Assembly (NCBI GenBank): GCA_024278555.1
Contig: JAJRSX010000021.1
Coordinates: 1 to 16,529, forward strand
Source of the DNA: a bacterium
Lineage (GTDB): Bacteria; CG2-30-53-67; CG2-30-70-394
Direction: 5' to 3'
DNA: 16,529 nucleotides
The notes beneath the pieces are model-generated. The model saw nothing but the letters and a program-made list of their open reading frames with translations. It did no database searches and was not told the DNA's origin. Within the stretch, counting starts at the first letter, position 1. Each line of letters opens with the position of its first letter. This document shows, one piece after another, positions 2,583 to 15,000 of this stretch. The translations under genes were made by a program, and so were the position numbers.

Positions 2583-2674
2583 CTCACAGCCCGTCCTCAT
2601 GTCCGTCACGGTGAAAAACCATGCTCTCGTCACGGAGAGAAAAACAGCAACGCATCTGACGGGGATCTTTCGAA

Positions 2675-2821
2675 GTAGCCTCGGGGCCAGTCTTTGACTT
2701 TGCACTTCGTCTTAGATCGAAGTGCAAAGTCAAGAACTGACCCAGATACTTCTGTCTTTGCTGTCAAAGATGGACGCTAAAGCCATGCAGTATAAGGTAA
2801 GGACCTGAGCCAAGAGGCTAC
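2675..2821. mobile_element. 147-bp MITE/REP-pair-like element with terminal inverted repeats
   Basis: The ends are GTAGCCTC (2675-2682) and its exact complement GAGGCTAC (2814-2821). Similarity continues inward for about 20 nt (CGGGGCCAGTC against TTGGCTCAGGTC). Inside, 2694-2709 and 2718-2733 form a perfect 16-bp hairpin with an 8-nt loop. The motif AAGRMCTGACCC occurs at the inner right arm (2728-2743) and, degraded, at 2799-2813 and 2683-2692 (inverted). No transposase is encoded, so it is non-autonomous. Such GACCTGACCC-like ends resemble, from memory, repeats mobilised by REP-associated Y1 transposases. The right end lies one base from the stop codon of the MazF-like pseudogene. Confidence 0.6.
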
Positions 2822-2822
2822 G

Positions 2823-3167
2823 TTACAGTGCTAACGCCAGACGCACTCCATGCTCTACCTCCGTAAGTTGTTTTGCGGACAGCTGGCCAACCTTTTCCTT
2901 GAAAAGCGACTTATCCACGGTAAGGATCTGTGACGCGTTGATTACCGAATCTTTCGGCAATTAGCCTTGACGAAGGCTCAAAGCAACATTTCCAGGCACC
3001 AAAGCGAGCCGTGTATTCGTGGTGATTGCTGCGACGATAATCGTGCCGATGCGGCTTTGGTTAAACGCGTCGGATTGAAGAATGAGCACCGGCCATCGAT
3101 AACCCGGATCCGAACCTCTGGGCATTCCCAGCGACGCCCACCAGATCTCGCCACGTTTCACTGCCAC
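2823..3167 (-). pseudogene. MazF/PemK-type toxin with in-frame stop
   Basis: The first 68 residues (MAVKRGEIWWASLGMPRGSD onward) match the MazF/PemK endoribonuclease fold, whose members cut mRNA. At codon 69 there is a TAA (2963-2961). The same frame then continues with LPKDSVINASQILTVDKS and a regular C-terminal part ending ...LALAL at a second TAA (2825-2823). Together they give the normal family length of about 114 residues, so a single nonsense change, with no frameshift, has inactivated the gene. Residue 25, just before PVLI, is W where I expect R in many relatives (TGG for CGG), a possible second lesion at an active-site position. The start overlaps the antitoxin stop by 10 bases. The 68-residue fragment alone is unlikely to be an active toxin. 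Confidence 0.8.
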
Positions 3168-3400
3168 TCGTCCTGCGGCAGCGATGCCAACTGAAGTTTC
3201 TCTAACACGGGATCCAAGTGCCCATGGCTCTCCTCGCCGTACACCGCGTTGAGCGTTTCGGTTACTCCTGCTTCCCAGTGCTCTCGGAGGAACTCTTGAA
3301 CCGCACGCTGGAAGAGCTCACTTCGACACACACCGGGCCGTTTTGCCATCTTCTCTGCGGTGTCGAAAAGCGGGTCTGAAATAGAGATGGCTGTTTTCAT
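3158..3400 (-). CDS. Ribbon-helix-helix antitoxin of MazF/PemK-type module
   Basis: 80-residue protein. The N-terminal part MKTAISISDPLFDTAEKMAK, followed by a helix with SELFQRAVQEFL, is the pattern of a CopG/MetJ-like ribbon-helix-helix DNA-binding domain, and the acidic C-terminal half (about 45-80) would be the toxin-binding tail. It would neutralise the toxin and, as a dimer, repress its own promoter. It overlaps the toxin gene by 10 bases, the usual translational coupling of TA pairs. Because the toxin is interrupted, the antitoxin now has no active partner here; it could still act as a repressor or neutralise a related toxin elsewhere. The start ATG at 3400-3398 has no clear Shine-Dalgarno sequence and lies only 7 nt after the predicted -10, so a leaderless transcript is possible. 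Base composition is clearly lower in GC than in the housekeeping genes. Confidence 0.8.
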   Translation of the reverse strand: MKTAISISDPLFDTAEKMAKRPGVCRSELFQRAVQEFLREHWEAGVTETLNAVYGEESHGHLDPVLEKLQLASLPQDEWQ

Positions 3401-3407
3401 TTCGGTC

Positions 3408-3435
3408 AGTACAACTCCGGCAATACCCTTGTCAA
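3408..3435 (-). promoter_or_regulatory. Predicted sigma70-type promoter of the antitoxin gene
   Basis: On the minus strand TTGACA (3435-3430) is followed after 16 nt by TGTACT (3413-3408), four of six matches to TATAAT. The ATG starts 7 nt further on. It lies between the attC-like site and the antitoxin gene, so this pair carries its own promoter. Confidence 0.55.
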
Positions 3436-3467
3436 ACCGCTTGCGGCTCCTACGTGCCCACTTGAGT

Positions 3468-3597
3468 ACTTAACGTCCAATCTCAGGCGACCGGCCCAAC
3501 GGTGATGTTGAAAGAAGCGGCAAGCGATGGGTTGCCGCGAAGGTTGGAGGTGGAGGAGCACACCTTTGGCCGGGTCGCCTGCAGCGCCTCGTTAGCC
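3468..3597 (-). other. attC-like integron recombination site
   Basis: A 130-nt imperfect inverted repeat lies between two TA modules. The outer 7-mers are ACTTAAC (3468-3474, an exact RYYYAAC) and GTTAGCC (3591-3597, GTTRRRY with one mismatch). Both ends show TAACG on their own strand, then 8 unpaired nt, then an exact CAGGCGACC (3484-3492) and its complement GGTCGCCTG (3573-3581). Pairing continues to about 21 bp with 18 matches. A terminal perfect 7-bp hairpin (GCGGCAA 3517-3523, TTGCCGC 3532-3538) sits at the tip. Length, R and L boxes, spacer and terminal stem all fit the long VCR-like class of attC. On the minus strand the better box, GTTAAGT, would be the crossover box R', with the antitoxin promoter directly after it. 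No integrase gene is in the window. Confidence 0.6.
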
Positions 3598-3635
3598 TCA
3601 AATTCATCGCAAGCGACCATCGCTATGTGTAAGAC

Positions 3636-3684
3636 TATAAGGTAAAGAACTGACCCCGAGGCCCGCACTGACCCCGAGGCCCGC
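3636..3684 (+). repeat. REP-like motif with an 18-nt tandem duplication
   Basis: TATAAGGTAAAGAACTGACC at 3636-3655 continues into CCGAGGC. It matches TATAAGGTAAGGACCTGAGC at 2791-2810 (then CAAGAGGC), the right end of the 147-bp element. The 18 bases 3649-3666 are repeated exactly at 3667-3684. It seems to be a solo end of the same repeat family, with a small tandem duplication. Confidence 0.6.
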
Positions 3685-3690
3685 ACACGA

Positions 3691-3750
3691 TTGCGAATCG
3701 GCCGCCCGTAAGATATGATGTGTACGAAATGAAAAAGGAGTACACATCAT
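3691..3750 (+). promoter_or_regulatory. vapBC promoter and autoregulatory operator
   Basis: TTGCGA (3691-3696), 17 nt, TATGAT (3714-3719) form a good sigma70 promoter. A perfect 11-bp inverted repeat, ATGATGTGTAC at 3715-3725 and its complement at 3740-3750, overlaps the -10 at one end and the first two bases of the start codon at the other. The 14-nt interval holds the ribosome-binding site AAGGAG, which runs into the first base of the right arm. The layout fits repression by a VapB-containing complex; as RNA the same hairpin could also hide the start codon. Confidence 0.7.
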
Positions 3751-3943
3751 GCGTACCAATATCGTGATTGACGACAAGCTCATGGAAGATACGCTTCGTG
3801 CCACCGGCTTGAAGACCAAGCGCGAGGCTGTGGAGCTTGGGTTGCGCACCCTGCTTCGACTACGCAAGCAAGAAGAGATCCGGCGCTTGCGCGGCAAACT
3901 GGCCTGGGAAGGCGACCTTGATGCAATGAGGAGCGACAAGTGA
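3749..3943 (+). CDS. vapB: VapB-family antitoxin
   Basis: 64 residues. MRTNIVIDDKLMEDTLRATG with KTKREAVELGLRTLLRLRKQ is the ribbon-helix-helix domain of the short VapB antitoxins that begin MRTNIxID. The last 20 residues (RRLRGKLAWEGDLDAMRSDK) are the toxin-binding tail, with the W-G-D pattern usual for this group. It should bind the VapC below and, with it, repress the operator that spans its own start. The start is set by AAGGAG at 3735-3740, 8 nt before the ATG. Its stop TGA overlaps the GTG start of vapC (GTGA), so the two are translationally coupled. Composition is less GC-rich than the surrounding chromosome, which fits horizontal acquisition. Confidence 0.88.
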   Translation: MRTNIVIDDKLMEDTLRATGLKTKREAVELGLRTLLRLRKQEEIRRLRGKLAWEGDLDAMRSDK

Positions 3944-4332
3944 TCCTGGTCGATTCCAGCGTTTGGATCGACTACTTCCGAGGGAACCCGACGCCCCAGA
4001 GCGACCGGCTTGACGACCTTCTGGGAGTGGAGCTGCTGGCCATAGGCGACTTGATACTCACTGAGGTTCTCCAAGGATTCGCTAACGACAAAGACTTCAA
4101 TCACGCCAAGAAGTTGCTGACTTCTTTGGTGGCGACCGACCTTGGTGGCCAGGACATCGCCATAAAGGCTGCCAAGAATTTTCGTGCGCTGCGGGCACTC
4201 GGTATCACGGTGCGCAAGACGATCGACACCGTGATTGCGACACGATGCATCGAAAGTGGCCTTATCCTGCTTCACGCCGACCGGGATTTTGAACCATTCG
4301 TGACCCACCTTGGTCTACGCTCGGTGTTTTAG
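3940..4332 (+). CDS. vapC: VapC-family PIN-domain ribonuclease toxin
   Basis: 130 residues, full length for VapC. The PIN-domain acidic residues are all present: D5 (MILVDSSVW), E42 (LTEVLQGF), D96 (TIDTVIA) and D114/D116 (HADRDF). These bind Mg2+/Mn2+ for single-strand RNA cleavage; known VapC proteins cut initiator tRNA or the sarcin-ricin loop, but the target here cannot be read from sequence. It starts with GTG inside the GTGA overlap with vapB. The module looks intact, in contrast to the interrupted MazF-type pair next to it. No attC-like structure is seen after its stop; intergenic repeats begin within about 60 nt. Confidence 0.9.
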   Translation: MILVDSSVWIDYFRGNPTPQSDRLDDLLGVELLAIGDLILTEVLQGFANDKDFNHAKKLLTSLVATDLGGQDIAIKAAKNFRALRALGITVRKTIDTVIATRCIESGLILLHADRDFEPFVTHLGLRSVF

Positions 4333-4390
4333 GGAAACCTAACTCTGAATTCACCGGTTGGTATAGTTCTGCAAACAAAGCGCCCTGGCA

Positions 4391-4443
4391 CCTTCGCGCC
4401 TTTGCGTTGAGGCAGTTCTTCCGTTCCTTCGTGGTTTTGTCTC
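4391..4443 (-). repeat. Two fused short-period repeat tracts, headless
   Basis: Read on the minus strand, AAAACCACGAAGG (to 4421) runs into AACTGCCTCAACGC and AAAGGCGCGAAGG (to 4391). The second part matches the spacer and tract of copy 2 at 466-426, while the first part matches the class at 568-541. Two classes therefore appear joined, as if one had inserted in or recombined with the other. Confidence 0.55.
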
Positions 4444-12046: not shown

Positions 12047-15000
12047 ATGCGACTTCTTCTCTGGTACGTCGTCTGGTGTGTGGCATCGGCCTCGGTTGTG
12101 GCGGCGGCGGCCGTGCCGAGCGACGGCCTGCTCGCCGAACGGCGGGCGGCCCTGGAGCAGAGCCTGGCCCGGCTCGACGGCGAGGAGGGGCGCATCGCCG
12201 CCCGCATCGCGGCGCGCGCCCGGCCGGTGAGCGAGCGGGAGGTGGAGCTGGCGCGGCTGGAGGCGGAGCTGGCGCAGGAGGGGGTGGGGGGAGACCTGGA
12301 GGAGGTGGCGATCGCCACCCTGAAGGCGCAGTGGGAGGTCCAACGCGACGGCATCGCCGCGGAGCTAAAGAGCAGAGAGGCGACCACGGGCACGGCGCCC
12401 AAAGGCGAGACCGTGGCAACCCTCGAGGCGCGCCTGGCCGCCCTCGACGCCCTCCTCGCCTCGGATGGGCCGGCCCGGGAGATCGTCGCCCTCCAGCGCC
12501 GCCTGGAGGGACGCCGCGCCGCCCTCGCCGCCCTGCGCGCCCGGCTCCTCGACGAGCGCCACCGTAGCGAGCAGCAGGCGGCGGCGCGGGCGCGGCTCGA
12601 TGCGGAGGCGAAGGGGGCGGCGCGACGGATCGCCGCCCTGGAGGCGGAGCAGCGGGAGGTGGAGGGCCGCCGTACCGGCCTGGAGGAGGAGATCCAGAAG
12701 GCCGAGACGGGCAGCAGAGAGGCGGCGCAGGTTGAGCTCCTGCGCGCCCAGGCCGACCTCGCCGCCCTGGAGGGGTACCGCCTCGCGGAGGCGATCGCCA
12801 CCGCCCGCGCCCACTACACGGCGGTACGCTTCTCCATCGACTTGGAGCAGCGCCGCGCCGCCACCGACCCGAGCGTGGCCACCCCCCGCGCCATCACCCG
12901 ACAGCTCGATGAGGAGCGGCGCCGGGCCGCCACCCTCGAGCACCAGATCGCCGACCTGACGCGACGCCGCGACCTCTACAAGCGGCGCAAGCAGGCCCTG
13001 GAGCGCCAGGCGGAGCTCCTTGCCGCCCTCAAAGAGGAGGGGGCGAACGCCGGACGGGTCTCGGTGGCGCAACGCCGGGCAACGGTGGACAAGACCCTCG
13101 CCCTGGTGGAGGAGCACGCCCGCCTCCTGACCGACAGCCGCGCGGCGGAGACGGCCTTTATCGACGACCTGGAGGAGGCCCTCAGCGGTCGGGAGGATGT
13201 GCGCCTCGGCTACCGCTCACCACGCGCCTGGTCCGTGACCGAGCTCCCAGCGACCGTCGCCGAGCTCGTGACCATGCTGCGCCACCTGGAGCCGGTATCT
13301 CCGACCACCTCGGGGCGGCTGGCTGCCGCCGTTGGGACGGCGCTCCTCGGCCTCCTCCTCGCCGGCGGCGCCCACCGGCTCCGCCTCCGCACCCGCCGGC
13401 CGCGGGCGCGCCTGCGCGAGCGCACGGTGGGCTACCGCGGGGTACGCTCGGTGGTGGCGTTGATCGGCCTGATCATCGGCCTCGCGCCACCGACCTTCGC
13501 CGCCGCCGGGTTCGGCGTGGCGCTCCGGCTCACCCTCCCCGGCCCCCCAGGGCTCGCCCTCCTCTACCTCGTGGGCGCGGCGTGGGCGTCGGCGGCGACG
13601 CGCATCTGCCTCCGCTACCTCCGCTGGGTCCTGCGCGGCGGCCGCATCTTCGCCATCACCGTGGGGCGCCGGCGCGGCTGGCGCTGGTTCGCTCGCCTCG
13701 GCGACCTGGTCTGGTTCTACATGGCGATCTGCTTCGGCCTCGTGGAGCTCGGTGCGCCACCCGCGTCGATCGCCCTGCTCAACGACGGCGCCGCCTTCAC
13801 CACCCTCGTCCTCCTGCCGCTCCTCTGGTGGCGACGGCCGCCGGTCTTCCGGACCTCCGGGTTGGCGTGCCTCTGCTTCAGCCTCCTCCTCCCGGCGGCC
13901 GCCATCCTCCTGCTCATCACCCTGGCCGGGTACCACAACCTGGCCCTGGCGATCACCGTTGGGGCGGCGATCACCCTCGGCCTGATCCTCGCCTGGGGGG
14001 TGGGTACGGTGGTCGCCGCCGACCTCTGGCGCCTCGCGATACCACCCGAGGGACGCCTCGCCCGCCTCGCGTCGCTGAAGGGAGAGGAGGCCGCAAACCT
14101 GGCGCGTACCCTCACCCGCGCCACCTCCCTCATCCTCGCCCTCTGCCTGGTCGTCTGGAAGGACCCGACCCAGGCGCTGTTTGCCAGCCCCCTATGGCGC
14201 CTCCTCGCCGGCGCCCTCCGCCATCCACTGCTGCACATCGGCGGGGTGGAGGTCACCACCCTGTCGCTGGTGCAGGGGGCGCTGATCTTCGCCGCCTTCA
14301 TCTTCGCCTCCCGCCTCCTGCGACGGCTGCTGCGCGACCGCGTCTACCCGCGCACCCGCATCGACGCCGGGGTGCGCAACGCGATCAACAACTTCATCAA
14401 CTACGGGCTGCTCACCCTCGGCGTCCTGGTGGCGCTGCAGGCGGTGGGGATCGAGCTCACCACCCTCACCGTCTTCGCCGGGGCGCTGGGTGTCGGTCTC
14501 GGCTTCGGCCTGCAGAACATCGCCAACAACTTCGTCTCCGGCCTGATTCTGCTGCTGGAGCGGCCGGTGAAGACCGGCGACTACATCGACCTCGGCACCA
14601 CCCGTGGGGTGGTGAAGCGGATCGGCGCCCGCTCCACCCAGATCCGCACCCGCGACAACATCGCCATCGTGGTGCCCAACTCGGAGCTCATCTCCCAGTC
14701 GGTGACCAACTGGTCCCTGGAGGACCCGAAGACGCGCATCCACGTGGGCGTCGGGGTCGCCTACGGCACCGACCCGCACCGGGTGGAGGCGCTGCTCCTC
14801 GGGGTCGCCAAGGCGCACCCCCAGGTCCTCACCGTGCCGCCGCCGCGCATCTGGTTCCAGGACTTCGGCGCCAGCTCCCTCGACTTCGTCCTCCTGTGCT
14901 GGGTGCGCAACCCCGCCACCACCGGCCTGCGTGGCCTCCGCTCGGAGCTGCGCTTTGCGATCACCGACGCGTTCACCAAGGCCGGCATCGAGATCCCCTT

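Follow-up and report, generated by a model that had tools for sequence, protein, structure and literature searches.

This locus raises a simple question: is an imperfect inverted repeat of 130 nt, lying between two toxin-antitoxin (TA) modules in the chromosome of an uncultured bacterium, a genuine integron attC site, and if it is, how did a single such site come to be there? The window that we analysed, 16,529 bp long, is an entire contig of a draft genome of 3.06 Mb in 211 contigs. The initial annotation had called the element an orphan attC-like site and had offered two origins for it, the remains of a sedentary cassette array or an integron-independent insertion of a cassette. Our answer is that the element is an authentic attC and belongs to a lone orphan cassette (SALIN), stranded in the chromosome from a chromosomal integron system that has decayed; we consider this explanation highly likely.

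The architecture on which the proposal was built is present in the sequence in every part. The ends of the element are ACTTAAC (3468-3474), an exact match to RYYYAAC, and GTTAGCC (3591-3597), which departs from GTTRRRY at one position; the two R boxes pair as AAC/GTT. The termini are TAACG/CGTTA and the spacers are 8 nt on each side, the left one having the usual length of reference sites (56 of the 63 share one length). By sequence and repeat search, the inverted arms (3484-3504 and 3561-3581) pair at 18 of 21 positions and include an exact inner match of 9 bp, CAGGCGACC/GGTCGCCTG, plus its extension. A 7-bp hairpin (3517-3538) forms the tip.

A covariance search, which the initial annotation had suggested as a check, supports the attC identity. 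We built a covariance model (R1), distinct from that of IntegronFinder, from 63 aligned sites with R and L pairings. The sites came from the loci of integron integrase relatives on 80 genome contigs; attC sites adjacent to intI were gathered by script and chosen by script score, after which poor candidates were discarded by eye. The window site was excluded from training. The base pairs of R1 covary well beyond shuffled controls. With filters off, R1 matches the window site over the whole model at 30.4 bits (E 2.4e-5), and the runner-up in the window scores 12.5 bits. When 37 kb of this genome were searched in the same way, a second attC, on contig C73, scores 29.4 bits and the next match 18.4 bits. 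The latter is a weak attC-like match (L188:2090-2171, also on C73; E 0.02). Under the default speed filters the window site scores 24 bits with a genome-level E of 0.11, a lower score because its variable region is long. A second model (R2) was trained with the window and C73 sites included; its scores for both are circular and are not counted as evidence. A strict attC pattern had zero matches genome-wide, and an Rfam search returned no attC family; what it matched was a hairpin at 2680-2750, by chance.

The initial annotation had left the orientation open, and R1 settles on the minus strand: the match reads from 3597 to 3468, which makes the exact box, GTTAAGT, the R' box, and no plus-strand match at the site appears in the R1 results down to about 4.6 bits. 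We have little doubt that this is the canonical reading. The single-strand folds show the same asymmetry. The plus strand of the window, putatively the bottom strand that recombines, reaches -32.3 kcal/mol when folded (z -3.4), a value equalled by 0 of 200 shuffles, and its predicted fold pairs both the R and the L boxes. The opposite strand folds more weakly and leaves the R boxes unpaired. As for the extrahelical bases that an attC would be expected to have on the '' arm of its bottom strand, the predicted fold shows a single bulged G.

Could the element instead be a chance or repeat-derived palindrome, of REP or MITE-like origin, in an AT-richer island? The region from 2640 to 4400 has a GC content of 0.47-0.62 against about 0.69-0.71 on both flanks, REP-like repeats lie near both ends of the segment that holds mazEF and the attC, and the score under default filters is modest. 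Nevertheless, we regard this as very improbable. The boxes, the spacing and the strand asymmetry are all correct, and the covariance score stands far above all other tested sequence of the genome, the C73 attC excepted. Moreover, the initial annotation had allowed that the same 130 nt might turn out to be a genome-wide repeat unrelated to cassettes; the element is present once. It is the neighbouring REP-like repeats that are genome-wide, and they are unrelated to the attC: GTCAAGAACTGACCC-like sites number 50 in the genome against 4 for a reversed-pattern control. Repeats of the GTAAAGAACTGACCC type occupy some 50 places, those on either side of the segment (2680-2811 and 3634-3684) among them, and are clustered, often as inverted pairs. 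A separate tandem repeat, of the heptamer GGACAGC, occupies the end of the contig (16413-16529). That the element is a real integron attC is in our judgement close to certain.

Table 1. Features of the attC region of the window (coordinates are window positions)
Feature	Position	Strand	Basis or detail
REP-like inverted repeat and related unit, left bound of island	2680..2811	.	Same repeat family as 3634..3684
MazF/PemK toxin gene with in-frame stop	2823..3167	-	Pfam PemK_toxin, E 6.2e-13, profile positions 1-60 of 109
MazE-like antitoxin, 80 aa	3158..3400	-	Pfam RHH_1 (ribbon-helix-helix), E 0.032, weak, below cut-off
attC recombination site, 130 nt	3468..3597, read 3597->3468	-	R1 30.4 bits, E 2.4e-5, filters off; fold z -3.4
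attC, first half in minus reading	R'' 3597-3591	-	R'' GGCTAAC (one mismatch); L'' CAGGCGA-C-CCGGCC; then long variable terminal structure
attC, second half in minus reading	R' 3474-3468	-	L' GGCCGGTCGCCTG; R' GTTAAGT (exact box); predicted crossover G3474 / T3473
Inferred gene cassette, 869 bp, vapBC reversed relative to its attC	3474..4342	-	Inferred from attC orientation and start box
REP-like repeat unit with 18-bp tandem, outside attC	3634..3684	+	Genome-wide family
11-bp inverted repeat ATGATGTGTAC / GTACACATCAT, over promoter-like -10	3715..3750	+	Sequence
VapB antitoxin, 64 aa	3749..3943	+	Pfam PF09957, E 8e-16
VapC PIN-domain toxin, 130 aa	3940..4332	+	NCBIfam NF047959, E 1.4e-48; Pfam PIN, E 3.2e-9
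Probable cassette start, R'-type GTTAGGT 4343->4337, L'-like AACCGGTGAATTCAGA before box	4337..4359	-	14.1 bits, right-half weight matrix

The orientation of the attC determines where its cassette should be sought. Since a cassette lies upstream of its attC, the minus reading assigns it to the vapBC side and leaves vapBC in reverse orientation. The family assignments of VapB and VapC, made from their profile matches, are firm. Upstream of vapB, a promoter-like site (3691-3719; one found against 0.2 expected) is overlapped by the inverted repeat of Table 1, which is likely to be a VapB operator, that is, part of a promoter belonging to vapBC itself. At the far end, 4 nt past the vapC stop, the box GTTAGGT (4337-4343) is the best minus-strand match of a right-half weight matrix, with 0.08 equally good sites expected per window. 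The attC-side limit of the cassette is clear; the opposite box is good but has no C before its GTT, and that C is invariant in all 63 training sites. CCGGTGAATTCAGA also occurs in an attC at another locus (L108). We read 4337..4359 as a probable cassette start, which may be a target junction resembling attG or may come from the right half of an attC further upstream. A right-half match of 19.7 bits within the hslUV coding region was taken as chance. Copies of a further motif, cgcctttgcgttgagcag, lie near both edges of the region (444-475 and 4398-4425), and the second falls at the place expected for the left half that a preceding attC would have had. Altogether, we think it reasonably likely that vapBC is the cassette of the window attC.

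The other TA pair lies beyond the attC. The mazE-like gene has a paralogue on contig C206 that is 42% identical and adjoins a mazF. In the window, mazF is open for its first 68 aa, and the remainder follows in the same frame beyond a stop, as judged by comparison with the C206 paralogue. A frameshift was rejected, the interruption being an in-frame stop. Both mazEF genes run in the same direction as the attC reads. The initial annotation had singled out as unusual that the two TA pairs face away from each other. They do, with vapBC on the plus strand and mazEF on the minus strand, and the arrangement would be explained if vapBC is reversed within its cassette and mazEF follows the direction of the attC.

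How, then, did the site arrive? One possibility is that a former array stood here, of which two cassettes remain in the manner of a degraded CALIN: reversed vapBC with its attC, followed by a mazEF cassette that has lost its own attC. Indeed, mazEF starts just after the attC and in the same direction, like a next cassette; the two TA pairs are similarly low in GC; and the left junction is built like the right half of an attC that came before. On the other hand, that preceding attC has no left half, and the R1 scan of the 16.5-kb contig as a whole found no second attC, none after mazF either, where only REP-like repeats lie. The contig also has no intI, the intI matches of this genome lying on other contigs. 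We give such an array remnant somewhat less than an even chance.

The lone attC on the contig is in line with the other possibility, that IntI placed one cassette at an attG site, outside attI, beside a resident mazEF. IntI is known to insert cassettes in this way, as reported by Loot et al. 2024 (cited in PMC12901181 and PMC12444791), and the other attC sites of the genus lie on separate contigs. The resemblance of the upstream junction to the right half of an attC speaks against such an insertion, as does the congeneric genome G001, whose sequence upstream of trpB differs and shows no empty site. We hold attG insertion to be possible, and only tentatively so. Viral contigs, phages and plasmids yielded vapBC homologues with 65-73% DNA identity and no other relative of the cassette, and R1 found no attC at E ≤ 1 around two of these homologues. 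As no sequence searched carries the same cassette, both its mobility and its empty site are unseen. The two origins first put forward remain the right pair, and our analysis favours neither.

The wider genome does hold remains of an integron, as a search for intI and further attC sites, also suggested at the outset, bears out. A truncated intI on C121 encodes a 221-aa frame that matches TIGR02249 from position 136 on at 259.6 bits (cut-off 265). The product keeps the integron-specific region, the HxxR motif and the catalytic Tyr, and is without the N-terminal part and the first catalytic Arg. Contigs C121 (locus at 12639-13324) and C73 (L161) share an exact end overlap of 141 bp, and when joined they read truncated intI, attI-like GTTAGGC, a 145-aa ORF, the 29.4-bit attC and a 160-aa ORF. 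In this reading one attC-bearing cassette follows the intI. Neither ORF matches Pfam, and a REP-like unit follows closely after the second. Among the nearest intI relatives, the majority of those with attC sites carry them downstream of intI (inverted type). The window site has no functional intI beside attI and attC, so it is not a complete integron. With the integrase cut short in this way, the window attC probably stays inactive unless another source provides IntI in trans.

Four of the eight genomes of the phylum that were examined carry an intact integrase, and R1 (E ≤ 1, 150 candidates scored per genome) found at least four attC sites in G001, on four contigs, at least seven in G004, at least 11 in G005 and at least four in G006. 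In the searches of the present genome, 150 of 7,408 candidates (R1) or of 9,432 (R2) were scored, so further sites may be missed, as the C73 site at first was. Single attC sites in G001 (L189, L190 and L192) directly follow ORFs of the same orientation, on different contigs and in some cases near contig ends; by eye, the neighbours of the single sites in this genome resemble restriction or other defence genes.

The locus belongs with a known kind of element, the orphan cassette, and does not define a new one. Single attC sites without an integron integrase (SALINs) are scattered through Shewanella genomes (PMC9229058), and the IntegronFinder 2 paper grants that single-attC matches may be real (PMC9024848). 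Here too a single chromosomal attC lies beside a gene, with neither intI nor a further attC nearby on the 16.5-kb contig. The differences are a cassette that probably holds a reversed vapBC, an uncultured phylum as host and a truncated intI elsewhere in the genome. Sedentary integrons such as that of Vibrio cholerae carry TA cassettes with their own promoters (PMC11023631), and the window likewise has a type II TA pair with a probable promoter of its own adjoining an attC, but this pair lies outside an array and is reversed relative to its attC. In the inverted-type chromosomal integrons of Treponema, intI faces attI and is transcribed the same way as the cassettes run (PMC3607928). The intI remnant described here and its nearest relatives, with attC downstream of intI, are of similar build, with the difference that the present gene is truncated and has a single known attC next to it.

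Under the orphan-cassette explanation, a circular cassette with reversed vapBC would have been joined at 3474|3473 and 4343|4342, and the vapBC pair and its own promoter may have helped to retain it. A more specific version, in which IntI inserted vapBC as a reversed addiction cassette outside the integron (attC x attG) and truncation of the inverted-type integrase then stranded it, we consider unlikely.

If ordinary, the locus is a well-supported new SALIN. For an uncultured phylum, of which eight genomes were examined, it puts on record orphan cassettes and an inverted-type integron in decay. The junctions 3474|3473 and 4343|4342 provide a concrete locus at which two origins of orphan attC sites, array decay and attG insertion, can be set against each other, and the same locus bears on whether TA genes hold orphan cassettes in place.
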